Positions 23,837-64,000 of a DNA stretch of 64,000 bases are shown in pieces. The stretch comes from Ganoderma boninense (lineage: Eukaryota; Basidiomycota; Agaricomycetes; Polyporales; Polyporaceae). The notes under the pieces are model-generated. The model was not told where the DNA came from and ran no database searches. It saw only the letters and a list, made by a program, of their open reading frames with translations. The position numbers and the translations under genes were made by a program. The stretch lies in assembly GCA_002900995.3 (NCBI GenBank), contig CM035310.1:3185394-3249393 (forward strand). The letters run 5' to 3'. Numbering within the stretch: the first letter of the stretch is position 1; the number at the start of each line of letters is the position of its first letter.

Positions 23837-23900
23837 TACGTGCTGCCGGCAGCTGCTGTGGCTGCGATGCGGGCGGGCTCGTTTGTGCTGGTATTGTTGG

Positions 23901-45872: not shown

Positions 45873-46750
45873 CTGCAGAGCTCACTAAGTCACGAATGGG
45901 CACTGACTCCGAGATCGTAGAACTCACAGTTCAAGCGAATGCCTGGGTTGCGATGGGGCACAGGGTCTCACCGGGGAGTTCATATGAGGCACCTTTCACG
46001 GAGGGATCTGAGGAGATGTGTTGCCGTTTTGCTCTTCGCCTGCATCCACGACATGTGTGCGATGATCATACGAGGACCAACTGTAGGACTTACGAGGGCA
46101 TGAGCCACACAGCTTGAGGGCCTTTGCCCCCACAGGGGCACATGGTTCCACTAATATGTACTGTAAGTGCCAGCCACCCGGGGGGTGTAATTCCATGCAC
46201 TTGCTGGTCACCCGGGCCCAGCCCGGATGCCTGTGTAGTATGGAATGTGCAGTCCGGCCGGGTATGACATACCAGAAGATTCCGGCCGGACAGTCCATCT
46301 CAGTTCTCGGTGCTCAATGTTTGGTGAGTTCATCTAGGTATGTACCTGCATCTAGTGTGGGGGTATAATCTTATTCACTGTTGGTGTCCCGGAGCTTTGT
46401 CTCATGTTGTAATATCACTATTGTCCAAATATACAGTGTTGAACAATATTAGAATGCACTGCATCGAGGGCTTCTGACCCAATTCACTCCTTAGCGCCCA
46501 TGTAGGTAGGAGGGCTGGTTTCCAAACGTCTGGTAGCTTCAAAGGGGGTAACTCCAAATCTTATATGTACTGTATATACGGTCTATTGCGTGTAGGGAAA
46601 GATATTTTCATGTCAATATGACAACTAAACCACACCTGATGTAAGAATCTACCACCTATCGCTCCCGTGACCATGTATCTGCTCTCTGCCTCTGACAGTA
46701 TGCCTCCCATGTTCTCCCAACTACATATATGCAACTACATGGGGTAACGA
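45873..46750. other. Upstream of the kinase; start of the CCGG-rich zone
   Basis: It may hold the kinase N-terminal exons (near 46000-46110). From 46190 on, CCGG-containing words become frequent. Confidence 0.4.
46252..46291. repeat. Inverted repeat GTCCGGCCGG
   Basis: Perfect 10-bp arms at 46252-46261 and 46282-46291 with a 20-bp spacer. They are built from the same word that recurs in the repeats and genes to the right. Confidence 0.7.
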
Positions 46751-46849
46751 TGTGCCCTGCAGTAGCATGGACCACCGTCCGAGGGGTAGTACCGGCCGGA
46801 CAGTATGAACAGGTACTCCATCCGCCTGGCCGGACGTGTGCACCGTACG
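46751..46849 (+). repeat. About 90-bp dispersed repeat, copy 1
   Basis: It shares CTGCAGTAGCATGGACCACC, then CGTCCGAGGGGTAGTACCGG, CCGGACAGTATGAACAGGTA and CTCCATCCGCCTGGCCGGAC with the copies at 46892 and 48651. The TATA-like core of the other copies is altered here to TATGAA. Confidence 0.85.
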
Positions 46850-46891
46850 CTCGGATGGCCACCCCCTGGTCGCCGCACGGTACGTATGGCC

Positions 46892-46979
46892 TATGTGCGC
46901 TGCAGTAGCATGGACCACCGTCCGAGTGGTGGTACTGGCCGGACGGTATAAACAGGTACTCCATCCTCCCGGCCGGAGG
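46892..46979 (+). repeat. About 90-bp dispersed repeat, copy 2
   Basis: Same unit, with the core CCGGACGGTATAAACAGGTA. Just after it, 46984-47004 repeats the unit start (TATGTGCCCTGCAGTAGCAT), a third, partial copy. Confidence 0.85.
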
Positions 46980-47004
46980 CGTCCTATGTGCCCTGCAGTA
47001 GCAT

Positions 47005-48650
47005 CATCAGCAAAAGCGCTAACCTGTGGCAATGGAATTGCCACGCCGGACCGGCTTTGCACACCATAACGGGACAGGTGAGGTTTGCAATGCATCACCT
47101 TGCAGCTGCAAACCTGGAACCGGCAAGGTGGCAATCGCCATTCCAGGGTTATGATTTTTAGTAGGATTGTATTATTATAAGGTCGTCAAGGATCTGATAG
47201 TCAACGCTTAAAATCTGTCGGCAGGCTTGACTCCTCGGTTTGAACGTAAGTATGGTGGGCGGCCCGGGGTCACCTCGGCGCTTCACTCCAACGAAGCTCG
47301 TCCGAGTTGTCCATGTCTCGTCGTCTCTCTCATCGCTATCGACATTCCGCCATGGCTCTCTTTCCTCCCTTCGTCACCGGTCCGACACGGTGAAACTGCC
47401 ATGCTCGTCCTTAAAGTTTCGTGAATTTGGTTTTCTGGAAAGATTGAGTCCAAGCAATGCTCGGAAGTCGCGGTGAGCCCCCGGTCGATTCCCCTACGCA
47501 CGGTGAGTCATTTATTATCTGTGCATGTTCTCCCCGTCTTTTGAGGCCCTGCATATGGAGAGGAGTCGGGTGTGAGGTTCGTGGCCAGTTGACCTGTGAT
47601 TCTTGGACGAGGTCCGTGCGCTGTCACGGGGCCAGTCCAAGTTCATGACCTGTCATTCGGCCGTCCCGCCCTTTATCAAGCTCCTCACCCTCTCTGTTGC
47701 ATTTCTCAAGACTTTTTCCTTGCCTCCCATCGCCCACCACTTCGCTCAAGTGCGAGTGCGATGCTCGTGTCGAACGGGTCCCATGGTAGGTCTTGGAGCG
47801 TGCTGTACTGATGTCCTCATCCCAGGAGGATCTACAGCGTCGGGCACCGATTCGACTCGAGGTCGGTAGGTCGTTGTATGCGCCTCATCCATCAGTGCTG
47901 ACTGTATGCTTCCTCCCCCATTATTGCCTCGTCGGTTACGTCCCTCTGGGTTTGTGAGGCTTCAAAAAGGCGAGTCTTGTTCTCTCGGGCACTCTTGTTC
48001 TCTCGGGCACTCTATCTTCTCTTAATCTTCTCGCTACGGCACCCACCTCTTTCCTATGCACCTACTGACTGCGCTATAGTGCCTGTCATCCCTATCACAT
48101 AGTCACTATCATGGTACTATGTTCCAGCCTTATCTCGCTAGGACAGGTGAGTTGCGGTTTTCTTACACTCATGCCTTCGTCTTCGTCTCCCGCATCCTTT
48201 CTGTTTATTCCTGAAACCCTGGACATAGCCTGAGCCCTTTGGGGCGTCCCTTCTGCCCCCTTCACCCATGTGTACGTTTTCAGCCTGTCGTCGCGATCAT
48301 ATTGTTTTGTACCTTACTAGTAGTTGTCAATAAATCTATTCTTTCTTCGCAATTCATGCAGTGTGCCAAATATTGGTTACTGTATATATATATTAAAGGT
48401 TGTGCTGGCTATGACTGTATTCCTTGCATGCCATAGGAATTGCTACCTTGCGTGGCTAAGGTTTGCAATGCGCCCCGCGAGGGTTTGCAATGCAATCCTC
48501 GGTATGCATAGCCAATCCGATAATAACCACTCCTTTGTAATGGCACTACAAACTTCAAATCGGCAATCCAGTTATGTAATGTTATTTAATATAAGATATT
48601 ATTACATTGACTTTGTATTCCGGATTGCAATAGTTTTGCGCCCCCGCAGA
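47005..48650. other. Intergenic; minor repeats
   Basis: Contains an imperfect inverted repeat around 47019-47147 (arms with GGCAAT/ATTGCC) and an exact 18-bp tandem duplication (unit TCTTGTTCTCTCGGGCAC) at 47975-48010. The motif GGTTTGCAATGC occurs at about 47081, 48457 and 48482. No gene recognised. Confidence 0.4.
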
Positions 48651-48736
48651 TGATGGACCACCGTCCGAGGGGTAGTACCGGCCGGACGGTATAAACAGGT
48701 ACTCCATCCGCCTGGCTGGACGCGTGCACCGTACTC
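48651..48736 (+). repeat. About 90-bp dispersed repeat, copy 3
   Basis: It matches copy 1 almost throughout (ATGGACCACCGTCCGAGGGG, TAGTACCGGCCGGACGGTAT, AAACAGGTACTCCATCCGCC) and keeps TATAAA. It ends a little over 130 bp from the original stop of the serine-rich gene at 48870. Confidence 0.85.
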
Positions 48737-48869
48737 TGGGACAACGTACCCTCGGACAACCCTTGCTCCTGTGTATTATAGGGTGTATCACAATTGCTGA
48801 TATCTGCTGTCATGCACAGCCATCCATTACCATCTAAACTGGTACATTACTGCTGCCGCCAAATATACT

Positions 48870-49019
48870 CTACGTATTATGTCCGTCCTGTGCTCCGTAC
48901 ATAGTCTCCCATTCACCCCATACCGTTGCTACCTCATCCAAATTAGATGCAAAGACCGCATTATATGTATCCCAGGAACTCGGGACAAGTGTCGCTGGAA
49001 CCTCACGCAGAGAACGGAG
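48870..49019 (-). pseudogene. Severed C-terminal coding end of the serine-rich gene
   Basis: Forty-nine codons and a stop (LRSLREVPATLVPSSW ... AQDGHNT). They lie in exactly the frame that the gene at 49546-50403 would continue in if the MITE and one copy of its 8-bp duplication were absent. Separated from its start, this piece can no longer be translated with it. Confidence 0.8.
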
Positions 49020-49027
49020 ATTGGAAT
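49020..49027. repeat. MITE target-site duplication, left copy
   Basis: ATTGGAAT, identical to 49549-49556. Confidence 0.85.
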
Positions 49028-49548
49028 TAAGGCTGAACATAGGTCCAGGTTTCATGCAGTTCAACCTGGCTTGAACCTAGATATTTACCTATAGGTCGTG
49101 ATCTGTAGGTTACAGGTACTTGTGCTATGAATCAGCCACAAATCTGAATCAGGGATCTTGAAAAAAGTGACCTGGATTTGTAGGTTTGGGTATGGGTCAC
49201 TTGTAGGTTGATTCACACTTCAACAAGCAAAAATAGTATAAATTGGAGGCTTTAGTTAATAAATTGTCCTTGTATAGCTTAATACTGCATATATAAGCAT
49301 ATTTCTAGCATAAAAAAGACTACTAACACTCAATAATAGACCAAAATCTTAAACAGTAGCTGAGAAAATACTATATTTAGTATTCAAATCAAATCAATGA
49401 TTTGACCTATAACTTATAGGTTTGCTACCTGCAGGTTGTAGGTGAAAAGTTGGTTTGATTCATACAGATCCCAATCAAGCTTTTGAAAGTGGCCAAACCT
49501 GCAGGTACAGATCCCAATCAACCATAGGTTGACCTACGTTCAGCCTTA
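49028..49548. mobile_element. MITE, 521 bp, 8-bp target duplication (hAT-like size)
   Basis: Terminal inverted repeats: the left end reads TAAGGCTGAACATAGGTC, and the right end, read inward, is TAAGGCTGAACGTAGGTC (one mismatch in 18). The 8-bp direct duplication ATTGGAAT abuts both ends. The inside is AT-rich, non-coding and full of palindromic AGGTT/AACCT words such as ACCTGCAGGT and ACCTATAGGT, which may be transposase-binding subterminal repeats. An 8-bp duplication is typical of hAT transposases; the terminal sequence itself does not identify the family. Confidence 0.85.
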
Positions 49549-50403
49549 ATTGGAATATTGCGCCTCCAACACATGTATCTCTTCATCCAGCCTCGCACGC
49601 CGATCTTCTAGCCATCGTCGACTTTCGCTATCTGGTAAACGCTCTGGCATTAATGGAGAGATGGTTGGGTTCTGAATTTGCTCTGGGGATGGAATGGAAT
49701 CTATGTTGCGAAATCGGACGGTGCGGCGCACGCGCTGTACTGCATTCAATGTGGCAGATGTTCCCTCAGGTGACGGAGAATCGACTCTGAGGTGTTCCAT
49801 GAGGTTTACAGAGGTAGCCTCTGAACCCCTTCCGCCTTCATCCATGCGTTCTGGCGGGGTGGACGCACTCCTTCTAGTGTTGCGTCTCCAATCGCACGGC
49901 GATACCAGTGGTTGTGATGGAGAGTCCTGAATGTTCAAAACATGCCCCACATGGTGTGAACGCCTTAGCAACGGCGATTGCGACGTGTCCCGGTTCGGCC
50001 AAGAGGAAGGCATCATGTCCATTGCGGATGATGTGGAGTATTTTGCACGGTAGAACCGTGGCTGCGAGGATCCGGAGTGCGAGCTCGAGCTCCGGCTCGC
50101 GGGGTCTGGGGTGGCAGGCCCCGGAGACTCGCCGTGGTAGAAGACTGGCTGCTGTGAGGATCCGGAGTGCGAGCTCAAGCTCCGGCGCGTGGGGTCAGCG
50201 TCAGCCGTGTGCCCTACAACCTGTCAGTATGCGAGCAGTGTGTCATAAGCAACCAGACAATAGACAAGTGAGCAATACATTCATCAGCGTACCTGGCGTG
50301 AAGAACTAGATTCGACGCCTTCGGAAAGAGAAGGAAGTGCGCCCGGAGAGCCACCACGATAGAGCATCGGTGATAAATCGCCATCGTCCATTGGATCTTC
50401 CAT
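49546..50403 (-). CDS. Serine-rich orphan protein, truncated by the MITE
   Basis: Two exons, 50403-50293 and 50220-49546, give 261 residues from the ATG at 50403 (MEDPMDDGDLSPMLYRGGSP). The frame is open further upstream to about 50490, so the true start may be earlier. The protein is low in complexity, with a duplicated SSHSGSSQ unit (DNA repeats at about 50076 and 50157) and a C-terminal helix LEDRRARLDEEIHVLEAQYS. Its TAA stop (49546-49548) is the last three bases of the MITE. The original frame continued 49 codons further (48870-49019). No family recognised. It is divergent from the Cys-cluster gene starting at 51062. Confidence 0.6.
49549..49556. repeat. MITE target-site duplication, right copy
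   Basis: ATTGGAAT; part of the last codons of the interrupted serine-rich gene. Confidence 0.85.
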
Positions 50404-51061
50404 ATTCTCGGACGGTCCGGGGGCTTTTGCTGGAGGTCTCTGTTGCAGTCGATTGTCCTCACAGTCCTCTCTAGCATCCCTGCCATACAAACAGCGTCAT
50501 TTATCACCTACCAGGCCCTCTGGACAGCATTACAATACCTACACTTGCCACAGGTTTGGGGATGAGGTCGACGTTAATAACATTGGGGTAACGTCCCAGA
50601 TCGGAGTAGGTAGTCTCAACCTAACGTGTTTTGTTGATGGTTTCGATTCGGACGCTATACGCTGACCCTTAGCTGCCGTACGGTCAGAGGGCGGGTCAAG
50701 TACCTCCAGATTCTGCACACCCGCGCTTCTTTAAATGTTTTGCGCCCTCTGAGGACATCTGCAATCGTGTTGATAATTAAGACAGTTTTCGTGAGTTATC
50801 CGCTGTGTGAAAGACATACCTTAAGTTTGTAGTGCGATCCTGGGGAACACAAAGCTGCGTGAAGTGTGCGGAAGCGCCTCCTCAACGCCGGGCGTCTGTC
50901 TGGCGTCTACCCAACCACAACAATGTCTGAGGAATCAGATAAGAGATCGTGATAATATTACCACAACTTATGAGTCTGTTCACTTCTTGCGCCGACCACC
51001 ACCATCATCGATTGCACCACGTACATCTGTCCACTTCGAATCCACTCATCCCTACCTCGCT
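50404..51061. promoter_or_regulatory. Divergent intergenic region between two orphan genes
   Basis: 658 bp separate the serine-rich gene (minus) from the Cys-cluster gene (plus) and should contain both promoters. No TATA box stands out. Upstream exons of the serine-rich gene may lie near 50490-50700. Confidence 0.4.
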
Positions 51062-54000
51062 ATGGCTAAAAACACCAAAAAATCCCAACCTCACCCCCAA
51101 CCCACGCCAGAGCTCATAAATGAAGTCCGAGAATATGCATCCGAACTCCACTACGCCTTTGAGATGCGGCCAAAGCAAAACCCTCACCTCCGCCTTCGAT
51201 GGGACCGCCAATTTTGCCACATCACCAATCAACTCATTCGGTGTCTTGAACGCGGTCGCTTCTCCTTCCTCCCTCGAGTTGCCATGGGGGCCATTTGGGC
51301 CAACAACAAAAACATATTGCTACAAGAGGGTCGCAGTGTTGTGGTACGTCCGGCTCGACTGATTAGGTCCAGTACTGATGATGCTTCGTGTAGACCCCTT
51401 TCGAAATGGAAACTGTGATCCCGGTCTATGGCACGCACAAGTGCCTTGCGCCTCCGGCCCATCTGCATCGCGCTGCTCTCGGCGGCATCACACCGGACAA
51501 CTACACCCCCGGACTGCAGCTCCTCCCACTGGAGGAGGTCCGGACCAAATGGTGGGAGCCTTACATCGATCGTACGTATATTACATGTCTTTCCGCTGTC
51601 CATATTAACTACTCATTGCTTCCATCCGGTATTTCCAGAACCTGTTCTCGCAGCACCAAACCCACCCCCGGAACCCGGCCGGGCATCTCCCGAAGAGCAT
51701 CCGGAGGAGCCCGATGTGGGCACCACATGCAGGGGCCACTCTCAGACTGCAGTGGGCAGCACAGGCAGGGGCCACTCTCAGCCCGGATTTACCAGTGCGC
51801 GCAGGGGTTGGTCTCAGACTCATCGAGGGCAGTCTGCCGAGCGTCCGGGGCATCACTCAGCCCATCCGGGAACCAGTACGGCAGCGGATGCGCAGTCCGT
51901 GGCCTCGGACGGAGAGGAAGAGATTGACGACGTCGAGGAAGAGCACCCGCAGGTCCTTCGCAAGAGTTCAAGGGCCAAGCGTGCGACGTCCCGAGTCCGC
52001 GAACAGCCTAGACGCAAGGCGACGACGGCGTCCCAAGCTCCGGCTACAAGCTCGGGTGTCAAGGGTAAGCGAAAAGTGGAGGAGGCTCAGGTGGATCATG
52101 CACAAGGTCCGGAGGCGAAGCGCAAACGTGCAGCCGGTGACATGGAGGAGCATAAAGTCCTGTGGAAGTGGTACCTACACGTATTATAGCTTTCCTTACT
52201 TTTTATTGGGCTATCAGATGCTGATACTTTGGCTTCGCAGCTTCGCCCTTGCGATGCGTGTAAGCAGGGCAACCACCCCTGCCACTTTTGCAGCCTGGTC
52301 TCGACTTCCTGCCGCAGGTGCATTCTCAAAAAGTCTGCTTGTTCGCTGACTGTTGCTGGCGGTAATGCCGCCATGGCTTATGTCGGCTATGAGTACTACT
52401 ACCGCTGTTGCACGGACATCGGGAAGAAGAATATCAAGCACGCGAAGGTAGTTCCACAGGGCTTTCAGCCTCCGGAGTGGTTCATTGCACAATACCGAGC
52501 CATCTCCTCTGGCAAGCACAAGAAGGGGCCACCATCAGGTAATGTTGGTGCAGTACCCTTTGTGCCCCTTCCGGAGATCTCACTGCCCCCTTCCCCTGTG
52601 GATATGCGACCGGACAGTACTGTTGCTGACATTGTAGAGGAGAACACTCCACTAGCATTGGAGGCGTTCCTCAGGAAGCCGAAGAAGACTTCAAACGAAG
52701 ACGCAGGCGAGGAGTCCCCCACGGATGCCATGGAGGCTGTGGACGAACAGCCGAAGAAGGCTCCGAAAAACAAGACCAAGGCAGTGCAACAGCACGCAGA
52801 CCGTCAGACCGCTCCCAAGCTTAAGATCGACAAGCGCAAGAGGAAGGGACCACCGGGGCTTCACACCCTCCCGGACATGGTTCCCACCACGTCGGTATTG
52901 GCTTTTCAGCCTGTCACGGCTGCCGGGGGTCCAAGCCGTAGTGAGCAAACCCGTGCACCATCTGGTGTTCCGTCCGGCTCACGCCGTGGTCGAGCAGTTG
53001 TGCCGGTGTTGCCCTTACTACCCCCTCGCCGCCGACCTTCTACAACGACAGCAGTACGGTCGGTCTCCGCATCCGGGCATCGCACCCGTTCACGAAGCAG
53101 AGCTCCGTCAGACAGTCCGGCTCGGTCGCGCTCTGCATCGGCAGCCCCATCACCCTCGAGGCCCTCCTCTGCCACCGCCTCCCCGCCTCCTACAACCCCG
53201 GCCGCATCATCCGCTCATCAGGAGGACCACAATATGGACCACCTGGACTCACCTCACTCTGGCGACGACAACGACGACAACGACGACAACGACGACAACG
53301 ACCCGCAGGCAATCAAACAAGAACTGCTAGAGCAGGCCCATTTTGAGGGCACTCTCCCAGATGAACTAGAGTATGCTTCGGATGCCCCGGAGTACACAGA
53401 GCAAGAGCACATCCTTTTTGTGGCAGACGATGTAATGGATGCAGACAACAACAATCTCCTGGGACCGTCTTCACTGCCTGAGAACACCCCGCGCAGACGG
53501 CGCAGTCCGTCCTCGTCCGTCGAAGGCTCTTCACCTCCGACCGAAGTCAAAGGCAAAGGCAAGGCCGCGACACTGCCACCCCGGTTTCATCGTTCCCTAG
53601 GCTGGAACTACGATCGGCCGCGTCATCGCCGCCAGTCTGAGAGTGTGGAGAGCGTCCGGGCCGTTCAAGCAAAGGATGATTATGACGAAGTACCTCGGTT
53701 GAATGGTAAGTGGATCGCCTTATGCCCAGTCACCATTATCAGCTAACTCGGATGTGAATACATCATAGGCCCTTGGACCGGTCTACCGTGGCTGACGACG
53801 TGGACTGATGAGGAGCCCCCTTTCTTTCCCGAGGACAGGCCCGCGTCGCTCGAAGATTTTCTTAACCTGCGTGGCCTTGTCGATCCCACCGGTCCGCTTG
53901 AGGGACCGGAGAGCCCGGATCCCCCCCAGACCCCACTCGCTCAAATCTTCCAGCTGGGAACGAGGACCCAAGACGTCTTGCAGGCGGCCAATGAGCAGTT

Positions 54001-55216
54001 CATGCAACTCCGCCACCTCGCTAATCACGGATATGGCAACATCAAAGAGCTCAACCAGCTTGAGGCTAATATCCAGACTCGACGCCGCAACGCTGTCCTA
54101 GCAACTAGCAGCATCGTCTCCTTCCAGGATGGGATGGAGAAGTTGTTTGTGCAGGTGTCCGCAATCGAGAGGAGTCTCCTGGACGTCGTCAACTACCTTG
54201 CGACGACTATCAACCAAGTCTGTACCATTGCCGACGTCTTCCACTTCGTTCTGACGGCCCCGGTGGATTGGATGGCCTTGAACGAGCTTCTGGAGGTCTA
54301 CCACAGACAGGAGAGCCTCTACCATGAGATGTGGCAACGGTATGCCGTAGTCAAGGACCAGATCAAGCCTCTTTCAGATGATATCGCCGTCCTTCGCGAG
54401 CAGGTCTTGGATGTCGTCGACGGCGCAACTGGGGGGCCTTCATCGATCGACAAGAAGACGGTCGACCGCCTCTTTGTCACACTGGAAGAACACGTCATGT
54501 CCGTCCGGAAGACATGCGAGCTGGACACCATGGCGCAGCTGAAGGAGGTGTGGAAGGAGTTGAACAGGATCGCCGGGCCGGCTCAGTCCCAGTCTCAGAG
54601 CATCATCCAGTCTATCCAGGAGATGAAGGAAGGGTATGATGCCGTCCGGAATGCGCAACAAAGCTTGCAAGAACTTTTGGACACTCTCGGCATACGTGGT
54701 ACTCTCACGTCTGGGATGGCCGAGCTTCAACAGCGCGTCGACAAGTTGGAATTGCACGTCGGGCTTGTTGAACCTGACCCGTCCGGCTCCGGTGTGGTGC
54801 CTGCAGACCCGGGGCCACAACCTCCCAGATCTCGAAGTCTGTCGCCACACGCTCAGTCCCCTCCTGCACGTCCAGCCACCTGCTCATCTTCCGAGCCTCT
54901 GGATGGCGGCCTGGGGTGGCAATCTGCTGAGTTCCCCTCGCCAAGGGACAGTCCATTCTTCTTCCAACCTCTACTCGCTCCGCCGCCCAACTTCAATGCC
55001 GAACTGCGAGGACTTCACGCTCGCATGGACCGTGTAGAGACATCGATTGATGCCCGGATCGATCAGGCTGTGAGTGAACGCCTTCCCGGCGCAGTTGAGG
55101 ATTACTTGAGCAGGATTGGATTGAGTCCGGAGCTTTTGAAGGACCTTGGGGAGCACGCGAAGGCCATCATCGCACGCAGAACGCAGGACAATGGGTCGCA
55201 GACCTCGGAAGGGTAA
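51062..55216 (+). CDS. Large orphan protein with a Cys cluster and a coiled-coil end, 1297 aa
   Basis: Five exons: 51062-51343, 51394-51571, 51639-52136, 52218-53705 and 53769-55216; phases agree. The N-terminal about 150 residues (ELINEVREYASELHYAFEMR) look folded. A long Pro/Ser/Glu-rich stretch with basic nuclear-type patches (KRKVEE, KRKRAA) follows. At about residue 325 comes a cysteine cluster CDACKQGNHPCHFC with SCRRCILKKSAC, spaced like a zinc-binding module but not a standard Zn2Cys6 domain. A DDN repeat (DNA 53262-53303) and another disordered stretch lead to a helical, probably coiled-coil C-terminus (LNQLEANIQTRRRNAVLATS, MAELQQRVDKLELHVGLVEP). No known family. It is rich in CCGGA words and lies in the TET-KDZ module; possibly a DNA-binding or structural partner (inference). 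Confidence 0.75.
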
Positions 55217-55721
55217 TTCGGACGTTTCTTACATGCTCTTCATGTATGATATGTAACTGCAGTTGTCAATGGGTAGCAAATGCTTCTTGGGTCTCATCTA
55301 TGCATGTCCGCATGGAAACAACATTGAATGTCATGACTCGTATGCAACAAATTGTACATGGCGTAAACAGTAAAGCACATCAGAGACACCAAAGCTACTT
55401 GCATGCCTTGTTCTTCCTCCCACAACTCCCGCTCGCCTGCAATTGTGTCCTCGGAGCTCCGTCCTCTCGTCCTTCCTCTTGCGCGCACTGCTTGCGAGTC
55501 CGAATAACGAGATCCGGCGCATCGTCAGTAGTCCCTCTCCGAGGGTGTTTAAGTGTGGGCACGGGCTCGGACGTTCCTCCTGGTGTTGTCGACCCTCCCG
55601 CATCGTCGGTGGACGTTCGAACACGGCCGGGCTGCGAGGTTAGCCCACTTCCACGTTCCTTGGCAGGCCTACCATGAGCGGGAGCTTCCGATACGGCTTC
55701 TTCGCCTGTCAACGCACTGCC
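55217..55721. other. Convergent spacer with a possible read-through extension of the minus-strand gene
   Basis: On the minus strand, the frame of the HMG-like gene stays open for 105 codons (55712-55395) after its TGA, with similar polar composition. Confidence 0.4.
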
Positions 55722-58631
55722 TCAGGTAGTGCGTCTCGGCAGATGCTTGGCCGGCCGTTCCAAGGACTGTGCAGCTGTGTCGGAGACATTGCTATCAGTC
55801 TCCGAAGCCCTCTGCCTTCTACCTGCGCGCCGCGGCAGGGTCTTGAGGGTCGGACGGCCTGGGGTGTGGTCGGAGCTGTCTCCGTAGAGATGAGGGTGGG
55901 AGCTATGGGTCTGCGAGTTGGACGTCCTCTTCCAACCGCGTGGTTCCTGGACAGAAGCCTCAGCATCGTCGTCCGGACCCTCAGAAGCATCTCGGATGGG
56001 TCGGACGGCAGCTCGTACCACATCCCCCATCTGCCCGGAACCACGGGCACCCTCCGACGTGATCGCAGCGCCCTTCCAATGCTCACCTTCATCGTCCGGG
56101 GTCTCCGGCCTTGGTCGAGCGCCGGCCGGTCGCGGACGATGCACGCTTTGTTCAGCGCACAATTTCAGCAGCTCCTTGACCTTGCCCATAGTCAGGACTG
56201 TGTTGACGAAGCAGTCCGGGGTTCCAGCTTGCACGTTTCCATCTTCGTCCATGCAAAAATGCGCCATGTTTATATCTTGGAGGGTCAGCCCCATTGCGAG
56301 TATATAGCACTGCACGTCCGACACGGATGTGTCTGGTGCAAGGCCCCGTCGAAGCCAGCTTAGAAGGACTTGAGCTTTCTTGTCCTGCGCATGCATGGCG
56401 TCCGGAAGGAATGGGCTGGTATAGGTCCACCACAGCCATGCCATATTGTTTGCCGGCGTGCCCGACACAACTTGTTCAAGCTATCCGGACGGTCATCGTC
56501 AACATCCTACATCCTTGCAAACCGTCCGTCTACATACCTTCGACCGCCAGCGAGATAGCAGTTTCTGGTACTCTGCATGGCTCGACAGACCTTTAAGGTA
56601 CTGGAAGCGGGCGGCCGCACTTGCACTGACAGAACAAGGTGCGAGGAGTCCCAAGGACATCGGACCCATGCTTCCGTCGACGTGCTCGTCGTCCGGTGGT
56701 GTCATAGCCTTTTGCTTGCCCTTTCCACCACTGCGGTTCAAGCCTCGGGTCTGTCGGACAGGTCGCTGTAGCGGGAGGCCGTCGTCCGACAAACCCGCGT
56801 CATCGTCCGGAACACCGCCCTCGACATCGGACAGCCATGGGTCGTCATGGCCGTCAACGCCCCCTGGCTTCCCGACCTCGAAAGAGTCCATGTCCTGTTC
56901 CTCCTCCATGGTCTCTTCCTCTGTATCGCATTCCTCGTCATCGAGGTCCTTCGGCTTCCTCTTGCCCTTCTTGCTTGCCTTCTTCTCCGCACCCTTGGCA
57001 GCCTTCGCATGATGGCGGGCAGTAGCACGTGCGGCGACATTGAGCTCATGGACGTGTTTCCGACTCAGCTGGAACATAGCATGGGTGCGTGTGGAGACAG
57101 GAGACCGTCCGGACGCCATTCCGGACGGTGCCGCAGTGTTGTGGTCGTCGTCCGGATTTGAGACGTAGGTGGGGCCACGCACCGTTGCCTTCGCCCGGCG
57201 GTGCAGCTGGATCTCCTCTAGCTCCTGAGGGTATACGGCCGGCAGCCAGGTGTCTTCGCCGTTGATCGTCGTCTTGTAGTGGCTGAAGCGGAATCGCCAA
57301 GGCTCTTCGTCGTCTTCATTGGTCTCCTCTGCTTCCTTCGTCGTGACATGCTTGTAGAAGTTGTAGATCGCATCCCGGTTTATATGCACTGGATCGTTCC
57401 AAGCAAACTGTGGCGGCGGGGGCACCATGTCGTCCGCGAAGAACTTGTGCGGAACCGCCATCAGTGATGACCACGGCACGGACTTGACCTTCCGGCCGTT
57501 TGCAAACTCTGTTATGAAAGATCAATTCGAGCTACAAAGCATATTCAGAGCCCCCTTGGGACGTACGGTAGTGGAGATTCATGTATTGCTGCAAAACCTG
57601 TTGCTTCCTTGGCAGTTCCATTTCCTCTCCGTTCTCCTTCGTGGTCAGGATGGGAGTACCATCGTCGTATCTCTCGAACGAAAAGGGTCGCACCGGAGCG
57701 GCCACGGTGTCTCGGACGGCAGCTGCAATATCGTCATTGGCGTCGTCTGGAGTCAGGATGACTTTCCAAAACTCCCAAAACTTCTTCCAGAGGTTGACAT
57801 CCCAGTGTAAGAGGGCCCAGAACTGTGGGTACGGGTCCTCCTTAGTGTGGAAGAGCTCCGAAGAATCGTAACTGTTACCGGACATGAGGAGAACGGTTCG
57901 GACGGCAAAGACAACACCTGAGCACTCACCAGCATGCTTTCAGGCTGTCGTCTACGTCTTGGAAGATGCCATACATGAAGATCGGCATACCGAACTGACA
58001 CCAAAAGATTCGGGAGACTGCCATCATCCACCGGAGCGCATGCTTGCGTGCCAACCTGCTGGCAGTAAGCTTCTTTGCTCGGACCGACTAGCATAACACG
58101 TACTGCGCCTTGATATCGTCATCCGGGCCTTCCTCTGTCCACTTCTGTGCGAGCTCCACCCAGAGCTCCTGGTCCTGCTGCGACATCCCCTCCCAGATGG
58201 TCTTGCGTGTCCGATTCCAGGTCGAGACGTACTCTGCAGACTTCGGGTCGATGTCAGGCATCTCCTTCTTGGTTTCATGGCGGTTGCGTAGGCCCCACAC
58301 TCTCTCTCCGGTGAAGATCTTGCTGAACGCCAATTTCTCCTCGTCCTTGTTTCCCTTCTTGGGGCTGTGGTTGACATACCATGTATAGATTTTCTTCCGC
58401 AATGTCACGTCCGTGAACATATTTCAATACATGAGCTGCTCGACAGCGCACCTGCTCGAACATATCTAAGGACATCGGGGTTTGCGGTTCTCCTCGTTTC
58501 TCCAGGAAATGCTTGGCCAGGGCCACCCGGAAATCTGGCTTCTTAGCCGCGGCAGTGCCCCGATACTCACCCTGCCGTTTCTGCAGTAGATCAACCTCAT
58601 ACTTGTTAAAGTCACTCGCACGAGGAGGCAT
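55722..58631 (-). CDS. Orphan protein with HMG-box-like N-terminal region, 876 aa
   Basis: Six exons, read downward: 58631-58452, 58393-58104, 58055-57930, 57871-57567, 57508-56538 and 56480-55722; all phases agree. The start MPPRASDFNKYEVDLL is followed by a helical region with RKTIWEGMSQQDQELWVELA, which resembles an HMG box. Aromatic-rich segments follow (IFWCQFGMPIFMYGIFQDVD, QFWALLHWDVNLWKKFWEFW). The middle is Lys-rich, then acidic (KKASKKGKRKPKDLDDEECD), probably nuclear. After a Cys-poor globular stretch (MAWLWWTYTSPFLPDAMHAQ) the tail is disordered. No named family is certain. It is transcribed away from the TET/JBP gene, with 426 bp between the two starts, suggesting a shared promoter and a role in the same mobile module (inference). 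Confidence 0.75.
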
Positions 58632-59057
58632 TATGGTGGTAAGGGACAACACGAAGTGCTGGGGATGCAAGCTGACAATCGAGGGGGACGACGAGCAAGT
58701 GAAGGCAGGGAAAGGAATCCACAAGGTTGCCGTGTTCCTTGCGAATGGGCAACGGAACTCTCTCCAGTAGGGGATGCACACACGCTCGTCAGCTCCAATG
58801 CGCACATCAGATTGTCCTGCATGATACGACACGTTCCAGTGACCACCGGCCGGCCAGCACTTGTAACCACTTGCCCTCCGGTCCGAGTGCCCGGGCTGTC
58901 ACGCGAGAGGCAGTGCTCATACATTAGACCATCAGATTTGCACAGCACCACCTTGCTGATATCGTTTGCATGATGAGAATCTGGCGTGTACGACCTAGCG
59001 AGCATCCTTGGACCAGTTAAGATCTGCCTTGCTCGCACATCCGTGCAGGAGGGCTCG
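58632..59057. promoter_or_regulatory. Bidirectional promoter region, HMG-like gene / TET gene
   Basis: 426 bp between two divergent ATGs. No clear TATA box seen. Contains several CCGG words (for example 58848-58856 and 58877-58883). Confidence 0.45.
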
Positions 59058-60409
59058 ATGGACGCGGCCAGTGGTGTTTCTAACCCCCTCCTTCCAAGGC
59101 ACTGGGCCATCAGGCGACGGACCGCCCAGTATGTGGTTGCACTGTTTCATTACCATCGATTCCGTTTCAATCCCGATCGAGGCAAGACCGACGGCCAGCT
59201 GTCCCGCCCCACCCCACCCCCGATTTCGTTTAGGCTAATGGAGGATTGCGACTCCGTAGCCCGGACCCTGGCTCTTGCATTCCGAAATCAATGTAAATTA
59301 AACCTCTCTTACTGTCAACTGTGTGTCTGATTTCCCTGCAGTGGCTGTCAGCTGGGATGCGGAGGAATATGCCAAAATATTGCCCTGGGCCACCACACTG
59401 AAGCGCGATGTGGAGGAGAGACTTCTACGAGAATTTCCCCCCATCACACCTGCGGACGAAGTTATGGCACGGACGGTCTCCCTTCGCATTGTCCGAGACC
59501 CGGCCGTGTTCACAGATCGCACGGGACGGATTTTGGCATGGTCCCTCCCCCAGGTCATTCCCCGGCATCGCCAGGTGAAGACTTCGATATCATGGTCACA
59601 TTGCATGGTGCTGAAACTTCATCCGCTCTGCCTCAGGTCATAATGTTCAAGGCTGTGGAGCACCTTAAAACCCGCCTCAAAGTAAAGCCACAACCATTGG
59701 GTAAACCGCCTGTGAATTGGCGGATGGCGGCCCAGAACTTTACTCCAAGCGCCGAATGGGGGGCTGGATTGGTCACGTTGTATCCAGCTGGGTTTCAGCT
59801 AGGACATGCCGTAAGTGTGGAGCCTGATATCTCGATCACCGAACTGAAGTGCATGTGTAGGGTCCGAACTTCATTCCCGCTCCCAGTAAGGAGTTCTCCA
59901 CAACGCAGGCCAATCAGTGGATGTCGGAGATGGAAGAGTCTGGTAGCTTGCTTGACGGAATTCTGGCGGTAACCCATCCGGACCTTTACGCCATATCTCA
60001 AGACTTGGCCGACAAAGTGTTCGCAGAACAATGCTGCTCATTGGCCACGGAAGGCATGCGTTCCTGGCCCACGAGCTTCAACTCCATCCAAGTGATAGTG
60101 AATCGACAATCACGCCTCCATCGTGACAAGAATACTGGCCCCGGGTGGGCGGACCTCCTTGCAACATTCGGAACATACGGCCAGTACGCGGTGCTAGAAC
60201 TGAATAATCTAGGCGTGTCCGTCCCTTATGACAGTGGAAGTGTAGCCGTAATCTGCTCTCGGATCGTGCGTCATGGAGTGCCGAAGGTGCAGGGAGACCA
60301 CGTGTACTACGCGTGCTACATGGTGCAGAATGTTCATACATGGTTTGAGATGCCGGACCCTGGGTTTGCCGATACAACCCGTGTTGCTCTCATGGACGGA
60401 TCGATGTAA
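59058..60409 (+). CDS. TET/JBP-family 2-oxoglutarate/Fe(II) dioxygenase
   Basis: A 396-residue protein from exons 59058-59292, 59342-59574, 59637-59810 and 59861-60409; phases agree. TET/JBP enzymes oxidise 5-methylcytosine (or thymine) in DNA. Typical fungal-type features: DRTGRILAWSLPQ (about 150), NWRMAAQNFTP and GAGLVTLYPAGFQLGHAG before the core, then SFNSIQVIVNRQSRLHRDKN with the iron-binding HRD at 301-303, WADLLATFGTYGQYAVLELN, and VRHGV with the distal His352. About nine residues later, where most relatives that I recall have the Arg that holds 2-oxoglutarate, this protein has His361 (VQGDHVYY). Thus iron binding looks intact but cosubstrate binding may be altered. The KDZ transposase starts 51 bp downstream on the same strand; such linkage is known for mushroom TET genes. 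Confidence 0.88.
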
Positions 60410-60460
60410 ATACATACACAGACCTGTGAAGCCTGTATGTTACTCACTTGACTGCTCAAC

Positions 60461-63400
60461 ATGTCTCACCGGCGTCAATTCGAAACTGTAGAGCCATTCG
60501 AGGAATTTGGCCTCCAAAGGAGACGGACAAAGAGGGAAATCGAAACAACAACGAAGAAGGTCCGGCTGGGGTTACCAACGACAAGCGATGGGCCTCCCTC
60601 TTCGGCGGAACCCTCTCCGGGACCGAGCGGCACATCGACGCCCGCTCCGGTGCACATCCAGCTTCCTCCTATTGAGACTGGAGAAGGTCTGCCGTTCGAA
60701 TTCACGTTTGAGAACAGCAGGCGGACGGGCAAGGTGCGCTAATGGTCAAACACAATAACCGACCGTGGTGCTTCGCTAATGCGTTGGTCAGACCCAGAAC
60801 AATTTTCAAAGGGAGTTTCTGAATGTCAGGGAGGAATATCTATACTGCGGCCTTGCCCTGGAGTCACTGCCAGAGGATGGCAAGGGAATCTGCAGCTATC
60901 TGGCCACCTGGAGATGCCTCACCTGCCATGGATGGTTGACATTCTGCGCTGAGTGCTGTAGGGAGCGCCACCTGAGCCATCCGCTCCATCGGGTGGAGTA
61001 TTGGACCGGATATTACTTCCATCCGGGATGGCTACGGGATCTCGGAGTCCAGATTCATGCCGGTCATGGTGGCCGGCCATGCCGCCGCCTACAGCCCTAC
61101 TCCGGGCAGCCCATGGACACTCCGGACGGCGCGCGCACTGTTCTGGACGACCGGGAAGAGGAGTCCAGAGTCATGCTAGATGAAGAAGCAGATGATTTAC
61201 AGCTAGACGATGAAGATGTGGACCTCGACTTCTATCCGGATGAAGATACACTAGTCACCTCTCTAGCAGACCTTCCTCGTTTCGGTGACCCCATTCATCC
61301 CCCTGGCAATTTCCTACATTCAACGACATATACAGGGGATCGCATGATGGTGGTCGTAGATGTCGATGGCATTCACGAAATCTCTGTGACGTTTTGCGTG
61401 TGTGACAACGCTGCGAGCGATGACTTGCAAATCTTGGATCTAGGATATTATCCTGCGACGACTATACGACCGCGAACAATGTTCACACAGAGAGTGCTAG
61501 ACGACTTTCTCCTTGCCAACAAGGAATGCAAGACCGCCACATGGAATTACTACAACAAACTGCAGCGGACTACCAATGACGCTTTTCCGCACATGGTGCC
61601 GGTACGTTCACCAACCTCCGTGTTCACGGCATTGTGATGAATGCTCCGAGTCACAGGATCATTATAAGGAACTGCTACGTACATCGTGTCAGTGGCGAAA
61701 TCTGCACCTGCGAAAATCTTCCAGCTTTGGACATCGGACGGAGGCAATACCTCCAGGTGGCATGGCTGTCCGGTGTCTGGCATGCCCACAGCCCGGCGAA
61801 AACCTCCCGGACAACTGGCAGGACGATCCGGACAGGTAATAGTAGTGATGCAGATGCATGAGGGGCAACGCTGACCAATGCCTAAGGTGGAAATATATGC
61901 GGTCAGTGGTCTTGGATGGCAACTTCTCTGCACAACATCGTCACATGCGTAATCTGGAGGATGATGTCCCGCTAGCGGACGGACACGCTTTCATGGTTAC
62001 GGACGGCCCGTACAAGCATCACCTGAAGACGGCGAAAGAATTCAAAGAGGTATAACACCAGATCTGATGTCTGAAGAGGTCAAAAGCTGACCGGACATCC
62101 AGAATTTGAAAATCACCTGTAACGATCACCGTGCCGTCCTGAACGCCGCGGTGAGCCATGGGAAACTGGAAGCAACTGGAATTGGGGCAGCCGCATGCTC
62201 TAGGCATGGATTCTTTTCGCCACATGCCTGCGTAGACTTTCAAGGAGGGGAACGGTGAGCTAGAACGTACAGGCTGATGGCGGGAATTAAGCAGCTAACA
62301 ATTGGTACAAGGCAGCGAAACATGGACTACGTGCTGCACTGGATACTGGCATATCTGAACGGCCTCACCTGGATCCTGGTGATGTACAACGTAATGTGCC
62401 AATACTTTACGAATTTGTACCACAGGTTCAGGGACAGCCCAGCTCTATCTCTGCCGGAAAGCCTCACGTTCATGCGCGGTATCAGACAGTTTCATGTTCA
62501 TGGGCACGTTGCGCCGTGCTTCCCCCGTTTCTTGTCGAACTTTATACGAGGGGCTGGAATGCAGGATGGCGAAATCATCGAGACCTTGTGGAACAAGACA
62601 AACACAATATCTGAATCGACACGAGGCATGTCGTCAGCGCACAGACGGGAGGTGATTGACGACACCATGAATGACTCGAATTGGATGAAACTAACGCAGA
62701 TCGGTACGTCTTCCGGACACTGTGTTCGCACTGACTAAAACGTCACTACAGTGTCCATCCTGAATCGAAAGTGGCGGAGAGCCTGTAGAGAGTGGCAGCC
62801 AGCGGTTGAAGCATTCCAGAGCTTATCCGAGGCGTCCGGAGAGGAGCAATGCGCCGAATGGCTTGCGGATGCACTGCACGCGGATGAGGAACGGATGGAG
62901 GATGTAACAGCCATGGATATATACGACGTGTCCAAGCAGCAACATATGCCCTATCCGTCTGGAATTACTGGCGTCGCTAACCAAATATTGCCTCACAGTG
63001 CCTACCAGGAAGGAGAAAGAGCTGTCGTTGACCCAAAAGGAAGGAGACGTGGACGCCACCATGCGGGGTGCGGCCAGCTGGATCTCGAACGGAATCAGAC
63101 TGGAGGAACAGAAGTAAGTGTACGGAACGTAAGCATACTTGGCCTTGCTCACAGCATTGTAGACTATCCATCGCGTACACTGCAAGATCCCTCCGTGACA
63201 CGGGAAGCAGCAGTGATCGTTTGGCTCTGACGCAGCAGCGACAACGATTGCTCACTGGTATGAAAGCTTTCCACAAAGCGGCAGACCGTCATCTCCGGAC
63301 GTCAATTAGCGCGACGGGGGTCCCTGTGAGCAATGATCCAATGGACTTCGGACGAGTCTGGGATCCAGTGGAAGGCCTGGAAGGCAGCTGGGCAACAAGC

Positions 63401-64000
63401 GGCGGGGCTCCTGAGCCTGGGGGCCCGCTGGACCTGGAGGAACAACCACTCGCCCTTCCGTCAACGATGGGGTATACCTATCTTGTCGAACACAACCTCA
63501 AAGACCTTGCGGAAAAGGAACAAGAGCTCCGGGAAGGACAGGTGAACGATTGCCTCCAGGGTATCCGGACCGCCATAGCATACAAGTCACTCTTGTACCG
63601 GACGAGGGTCCAGAAAGCCGGATCGTACCGGAACAAGCTCCGCAGCTTTGACGAAATCCGGACTACCAATGACGGACTTATGAAGCACGTCCGGGCGTAT
63701 ACACAAGCCCGGAAAGCAGCGGCACGGCTGTTTGACCGTGACATGGCTGACCCGGACTCGACACAGCGGCGCAACGTGTTCTTCTCGCGATACAAAGAGA
63801 TACGCCGCGAAGACCTGGGAGTGATGACAGCGGTTCTGGAACAGTTTACACATGGCCTACGGAACGTGCATTCCTCTTGGATATGGCATGTAGAAGATTC
63901 GGACGCTGTGCAAAACACGAGCTGGCTGGTAGATTGTGAGTAGCATCACCGCCGGCATGGGTCACGTTGTATTAAAGCTCTACATTAGTCCGGCGCATGC
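60461..64000 (+). CDS. KDZ transposase with CxC2-type cysteine cluster (runs off the window)
   Basis: Transposase of the Kyakuja-Dileera-Zisupton superfamily, at least 1017 residues. Exons: 60461-60733, 60792-61601, 61657-61835, 61887-62049, 62103-62254, 62312-62703, 62752-62956, 63009-63113 and 63163-63935; phases agree. A last intron starts at 63936. A disordered N-terminus is followed by the CxC2-like cluster (YCGLAL at 110, RCLTCHGWLTFCAECC at 132-147), then KELLRTSCQWRNLHLRK. The core has the LDGNF motif (Asp431), DVPLADGHAFMVTDGPYK, CNDHRAVLNAA, MYNVMCQYF, HVHGHVAPCF, DGEIIETLW (Glu613/616), STRGMS and DDTMNDSNW. KDZ transposases normally have Asp in the YD-x-x-CQ motif; here it is Asn552, which may disable catalysis. 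The C-terminal third is a helical, charged tail. Confidence 0.9.

Follow-up and report, generated by a model that had tools for sequence, protein, structure and literature searches.

Genes of the element

The window analysed here, a 64,000-nucleotide stretch of Ganoderma boninense contig CM035310.1 (C7:3185394–3249393), carries five genes between 49546 and 64000, and comparison of copies within the same genome (55.6 Mb in 74 contigs were searched) showed that this region is the middle portion of one large DNA transposon. The transposon encodes a TET/JBP dioxygenase, a KDZ transposase and three orphan proteins, present in the order and orientation given by a preliminary description, i.e., as two divergent pairs followed by KDZ. 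That description had also envisaged a large transposon with common ends and the orphan genes as recurrent partners of TET and KDZ; both proposals were borne out by the comparisons below.

At left, a Ser/Pro-rich gene (49549–50403, minus strand; two exons, start at 50403) has had its 3' end displaced by a 521-bp repeat. It is paired with a Cys-cluster/coiled-coil (CysCC) gene (51062–55216, plus strand; five exons, 1296 aa), whose product comprises an N-terminal A domain, a Zn2Cys6-type cluster encoded from 52250, an acidic linker and a coiled coil. The second pair consists of an HMG-like gene (58631–55722, minus strand; six exons, 876 aa) and the TET/JBP gene (59238–60409, plus strand; four exons); like the CysCC gene, both are open with GT-AG introns. 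The KDZ gene (60461–64000, plus strand) extends just past the window, and to its right there is a recurrent gene, R2, with a probable gene, R1, also present in the window family. Pfam searches returned Tet_JBP at 59861–60409 (E = 5e-15), and both CxC2 (E = 4e-26) and KDZ (E = 2e-26) for the gene from 60461, all over the cut-off; no family scored above the cut-off for any of the three orphan proteins.

Alignment of the dioxygenase to the CcTET structures 8jkk and 7vpn (E = 8e-10) showed that HRD, the distal His and the equivalent of Asp337 were retained. The protein thus has an AG-type HxD...H triad together with the Asp337 equivalent, and Thr at the place of Gly331 (residue numbers of CcTET, an enzyme that oxidises 5-methylcytosine, were taken from PMC12730594). 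For the KDZ gene of the window, an open gene model was not obtained beyond the second exon. Its acidic motif has Asn, as does its near-duplicate in L011, against Asp in the nine other KDZ exons compared; from this substitution, the transposase of the window copy is probably inactive.

The HMG-like protein has HMG-box-like helices followed by a GTF2I-like domain, both as weak matches; the HMG-box profile stayed below its cut-off (14.6 bits versus 25.4 for L016:827–1570) and the window piece gave no match. When the orphans were taken to homology search, linked hits were found within the one genome. The HMG-like gene was the sole partner for which a relative turned up in another, named fungus, and that relative came without genomic context; searches for CysCC relatives found none.

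Extent, termini and target site duplications

DNA searches showed that the left end of the element, at 46139 (CACATGGTTCCAC...), was sharp in six copies including the window, with unrelated flanks. The right terminus, reading ...TGGAACACACTC, was placed at C7:3276541 (91148 in extended window numbering), 27 kb past the window, so that the element occupies 46139–64000 of the window itself. A 7-bp target site duplication, ACAGGGG, precedes the left end (46132–46138) and its right copy follows directly after C7:3276541. The previously described extent of 49546–64000 does lie within one element, but the real element is far longer. The preliminary description had also proposed a search for terminal inverted repeats left of 51 kb and beyond 64000; ends with a 7-bp duplication were found on both sides, and the termini read CACAT...TGGAACACACTC.

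An exact 7-bp duplication was present in eight of the nine elements for which both ends were examined. Within the window family, besides the window element, these were CAATTCA for the C12 copy (which sits inside a multicopy repeat resembling a gypsy polyprotein), GCTACCA for C15:65708–79649 and CTCGGGA for the C16 copy. Pairwise alignment defined the ends of four more elements with exact duplications: C10_259 (GCTCGAT, 17.5 kb), C1_5301 (AAGTGTC, 18.6 kb), C10_1007 (TTCCGCG, 16.6 kb) and C6 (CATGTCC, 15.8 kb). The window copy is enlarged by a 1.65-kb repeat, the 521-bp one at the Ser-rich gene and nested DNA that carries KDZ. The ninth pairing of ends, C15:121780/158564, had flanks without matching 7 bases and may not represent a single insertion. 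The flank preceding the left end at C15:121780 (L040) resembles a CxC2 exon from a different KDZ gene, and so this transposon copy seems to have inserted there.

Recurrence of the gene set

Co-occurrence was counted at 29 TET places in this genome. An HMG exon lay on the opposite strand, 2.2–3.3 kb upstream of TET, in 25 of these; with 0.02 expected at that spot, this is not a chance association. The CysCC A exon was found on the same strand, 7.4–17 kb upstream, in 21 places, KDZ on the same strand, 2.2–5.2 kb downstream, in 24, and R2 on the same strand, 4.5–11.2 kb downstream, in 19 (it was not found near C6, C1_6237 or C10_1007). When window exons were compared by tblastn with the surroundings (20 kb) of eight further TET places, HMG-like, TET and KDZ genes occurred in the same order and on the same strands in all eight, and CysCC exons in seven. 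Exon identity to the window was 19–75% in seven of the loci and 92–98% in the eighth, C12_2785, where the CysCC region fell beyond the 20-kb piece compared and the DNA there is 98% alike. Most of the exons that were read keep open reading frames.

A Ser/Pro-rich gene on the minus strand occupied the left-hand spot in all six diverged elements whose left side was examined. These six share a core, RF..PTP..TPP....IVGE, and three of them a common C-terminus. The Ser-rich protein of the window, which reads VRFR..SIPSP at the core position, matched close copies and weak places; one of these weak places, C1:4978863, adjoins the A exon of the C1:4968 element at the corresponding spot. By these resemblances, the window gene is likely to be homologous to the genes of the diverged elements. 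In C10_1007 and C6 the Ser/Pro-rich gene contains long in-frame tandem repeats of 57 bp, or 19 aa (L021:1–1005, L035:9644–10000, L016:8368–9117).

The three orphans are recurrent partners of TET and KDZ. They are multicopy and mostly TET/KDZ-linked, and not single-copy host genes lacking KDZ or TET nearby. Four of 27 A exons and two of 28 HMG exons had no TET within 20 kb; two of the lone A exons, C11:200426 and C15:76586, are close window-family copies. Two further A-domain exons (C1:252862–253191 and C4:279065–279394), in frames of 397 aa that are 48–49% identical to C10_1007, had no TET or KDZ within 40 kb among the matches listed and no HMG within 20 kb; these are remnants or domesticated copies. 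Among the TET places, two had no KDZ among the matches listed, and at three, all without a partner, KDZ lay on the opposite strand. The latter form a second TET-KDZ class (C12:455783, C1:648748 and C12:2270750), for which no partner exons were found and, in the two loci examined, no CGG word of the kind described below.

A zinc-cluster spacing in the CysCC protein

Zn2Cys6 proteins follow the general pattern C-x2-C-x6-C-x(5–12)-C-x2-C-x(6–8)-C and bind CGG half-sites, which are contacted by basic residues of the cluster. The CysCC spacing, C-x2-C-x6-C-x9-C-x2-C-x6-C, agrees with this pattern and was present in all eight elements checked, with one stray match elsewhere, at window position 23854. 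Zn_clus was the only Pfam family to match a majority of the CysCC members, namely six of eight, with a best E of 1.2e-4; two of the scores, 11.5 and 12.6 bits, compare with a cut-off of 21 bits. Five weak sequence matches in PDB were to fungal regulators of the LAC9, LEU3 and Pho7 type. For a low-confidence structural model of the cluster (pLDDT 61), the first three Foldseek matches were PPR1 and, twice, Leu3 (E = 0.13–4.6). The protein resembles PPR1, Leu3 and LAC9 in its exact cysteine spacing and in having a coiled coil at a distance, but differs from them in its Pfam scores, its model confidence and in the basic residues of the cluster, which are not conserved.

A family-specific CGG word

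Hexamer counts were judged against dinucleotide shuffles. The top hexamer contained CGG in seven of eight elements (in C8 it was CGACGA), in none of seven controls and in neither of two hold-outs. Seven of the eight elements were enriched 9–12-fold for a CGG word of their own, and the word was clade-specific: CGGACSST, CGGCASST or CGGAASST. In the window element, CGGAC (best form CGGACGGT) is dispersed over 46139–64000, with 112 occurrences against 41.9 expected in the 16.1 kb that remain without two inserts, and CGGACSST occurs 22 times against 2.4. CGGCASST was counted 33 times in C8, 28 in C10_259 and 30 in C1_5301 (2.5–2.9 expected), and CGGAASST 23 times in C6 and 22 times in both C1_6237 and C10_1007 (1.9–2.1 expected). 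The shorter forms behaved alike, with observed/expected values for CGGCA[CG] of 65/25, 80/22 and 84/21 in C8, C10_259 and C1_5301, and for CGGAA[CG] of 64/16, 65/17 and 62/19 in C6, C1_6237 and C10_1007. The matrix of words by elements was close to block-diagonal. No comparable 8-base word count was seen in C12_171 or the control pieces, and two other-class TET/KDZ loci, one nested element with KDZ and the neighbouring 44 kb of the window showed no excess.

The word is confined largely to the mobile unit. For the five elements with duplication-defined ends, counts inside and outside were 32/0, 36/2, 22/2, 25/0 and, for the window element, 22/6, the six outside sites coming from 46 kb. Of the 12 CGGACGGT sites counted in the window family, five fall within the left terminal repeats; the first 44 kb of the window contain none. 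Across 15 coding exons there were 50 distinct sites, 25 per strand, against 8.1 in synonymous-codon shuffles. CGGCASST stood at 10.8 times expectation and its one-letter neighbours at 0.5–2.4 times; neighbours of CGGAASST ranged from 0.6 to 5.5 times and those of CGGACSST from 0 to 4.2 times (CGTAC being the highest).

Comparison with known elements

Linkage of TET and KDZ, 7-bp duplications and complete TET-bearing Kyakuja elements are already known (Kojima 2025, PMC12730594). The window element resembles these Agaricomycete Kyakuja (KDZ) elements in its CxC2 KDZ transposase, linked TET, 7-bp duplication and 5'-CA start; both a KDZ gene with a CxC zinc motif and a TET/JBP gene lie inside ends bounded by the duplication. 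Kyakuja-1/2_LB have 5'-CA..TG-3' termini without terminal inverted repeats (PMC12730594), whereas the present elements start with CACAT and end in ..TGGAACACACTC or ..TGGAACGGGCTC, i.e., ACACTC or CGGGCTC at the 3' end and not TG, for which reason they are called only Kyakuja-like. They differ also in having a zinc-cluster partner set and family words; the passages of PMC12730594 consulted name no partner genes for Kyakuja. KDZ1-3 of Cryptococcus are likewise KDZ elements, of 9–11 kb, but have terminal inverted repeats of 139–241 bp, duplications of 4–8 bp and CxC1, and the available part of that report names no partner set (PMC12810828).

The preliminary description had taken all three orphan partners to be new. 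This does not hold for the HMG-like partner: Iyer et al. reportedly described, in a 2014 abstract, KDZ/TET elements with extra proteins that included a divergent HMG domain. For the zinc-cluster, Ser/Pro-rich and R2 partners and the family words, no report was found in the open-licence papers searched; the family words are what is new here.

Proposed self-recognition and its alternatives

The copies constitute one mobile unit with defined ends, 7-bp duplications, a common gene order and private words. At about even chances, we favour the joint reading that it is a TET-bearing, Kyakuja-like KDZ DNA transposon of approximately 16–19 kb, with up to six recurrent genes (Ser/Pro-rich (-), Zn2Cys6/coiled-coil (+), HMG-like (-), TET (+), KDZ (+) and, in most, R2 (+)), and that its products form a self-recognition system that would aim TET demethylation at its own element. 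TET enzymes oxidise 5-methylcytosine. The CysCC protein, perhaps with the HMG/GTF2I-like protein, would bind the family CGG word across the element and in its terminal tandem repeats and, once bound, would tether TET along the element, where 5-methylcytosine would be oxidised. Only copies of the same family would then be un-silenced and movable by their own KDZ transposase, and the divergence of families would involve coevolution of word and reader. We likewise infer, as the preliminary description had supposed, that the transposon may control its own methylation state through its own chromatin proteins. A little less probable, falling just short of even, is an address code in the full sense, whereby the private CGG word, zinc-cluster reader and TET of each sub-family would un-silence that sub-family and no other element, and new sub-families would arise through joint change of word and reader.

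The VANDALs of plants are Mutator-like elements and are not known to encode a TET. In this Arabidopsis system, related elements carry different words, often as tandem repeats, and the VANC protein induces loss of methylation throughout the element (PMC5735166, PMC10398659). The present elements are similar in having family words, including in tandem repeats, and an element-encoded putative reader; by the comparable measure, the family word is concentrated in the element in seven of eight cases, and in five with defined ends this was seen inside versus outside. They are dissimilar in that VANC words occur in noncoding DNA (PMC5735166), while the CGG words occur also in exons and have a predicted reader. 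Self-recognition would offer a concrete, testable answer to why mushrooms have dozens of transposon-borne TET genes, and to how TET could favour its own element over all methylated DNA, in the form of a family word with a recurrent DNA-binding partner. If true, sequence-specific anti-silencing was invented independently outside plants, and natural reader-TET pairs exist for aimed demethylation.

Several observations weigh against self-recognition. Basic residues that would contact CGG are not evident in the CysCC cluster. At the divergent gene starts of the window family, the density of the word is close to background, with 2.6 per kb at 49549–51061 (including Ser-rich exons) and 3.3 at 58632–59238, against about 2.4 outside, and CGGACSST is barely enriched in three window-family exons (3 versus 1.3). 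Specificity is loose in the CGGAA clade, where CGGAG reached 5.5, CGGAC 3.3 and CGGCA 3.0 times expectation, and in the word-by-element matrix CGGAG is modestly raised, about 1.5 times, in that clade as well as in the window element (66/41.6). C12_171 has a different and weaker word, TCGGCG (45/13), which may reflect coding bias (8 versus 2.8 in codon shuffles, maximum 8). Selection of the word drew on the same data as its testing; blind half-split discovery recovered and confirmed it (3.6–5.2 times) in the window element, C10_259, C1_5301 and C6, but not in the other four. The 2-kb hold-outs, L051 and L052, were topped by AGGTGG- and AACGCC-like words with no CGG word, but decide nothing, since for pieces this short the known word ranked first in only one case of seven. 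Finally, members of a clade are related (one pair being 81% identical), so that the seven enriched elements amount to three independent cases, or four with C8 apart.

The main rival, which we regard as distinctly less probable than self-recognition but still a serious contender, holds that TET is unaimed, that the partners are transposition cofactors, and that the word is a site for the transposase or HMG-like protein in synapsis, packaging or choice of own DNA. Untargeted TET has been suggested for Agaricomycotina (Kojima 2025), and oxidised methylcytosine is found also on retrotransposons of Coprinopsis and Laccaria (PMC12730594). In the window element the density of the word is higher in coding exons (7.2 per kb) than in noncoding DNA (4.9), which fits a role in handling the whole element, and the KDZ gene, too, is family-specific. 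Transposases are, however, expected to read element ends, and the word occurs throughout the element; furthermore, the two other-class TET/KDZ loci examined contain KDZ, but the word is absent from them and a search for partner exons found none.

It is unlikely that the word arose as a side effect of mutation or composition, whether by CpG context, codon usage or gene conversion between copies. The words do contain CpG, and clade relatives do share sequence, C10_259 and C1_5301 being 81% identical with 14 common sites of 28 and 30. However, the excess goes beyond both dinucleotide and synonymous-codon shuffles, CpG is not depleted (observed/expected 0.89–1.02), and the TGG and CAG decay forms stand at 0.7–2.3 times expectation. 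C8 and C1_5301, at 62% identity, have only six common sites of 33 and 30, and different clades have different words. Least probable is chance capture of host genes without a common role, since the few A and HMG exons apart from TET, and the two A exons apart from both TET and KDZ, stand against an order, strand and spacing that recur across elements with exons only 19–75% identical, and against reading frames retained in most exons read.

Repeats, nested elements and a deleted copy

Tandem repeats of approximately 85-bp units containing CGGACGGT lie near the left terminus (46750–46982), with a further unit at 48653–48741; another repeat, without CGGAC excess, is inserted in this array (47005–48652). 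The 521-bp repeat that interrupts the Ser-rich gene (49028–49548) resembles a miniature inverted-repeat transposable element, with terminal inverted repeats TAAGGCTGAAC and an 8-bp duplication, ATTGGAAT, and has at least 35 other full-length places in the genome. At C7:3241950–3264813 (from window 56557 to 15 kb beyond the window's end) there is a near-tandem duplication of about 11 kb around a 100-N assembly gap; its second unit contains frameshifts and may be an assembly artefact. A distinct KDZ-bearing element, represented by L011:468–3720 and C1:6231189–6234431, is nested in the right part of the window element or lies next to it. The window-family copy at C15:65708–79649, 13.9 kb in length, has both ends, the 7-bp duplication and the A exon, with no TET, HMG-exon or KDZ-domain match among the matches listed; it is probably an internally deleted copy that was moved in trans.

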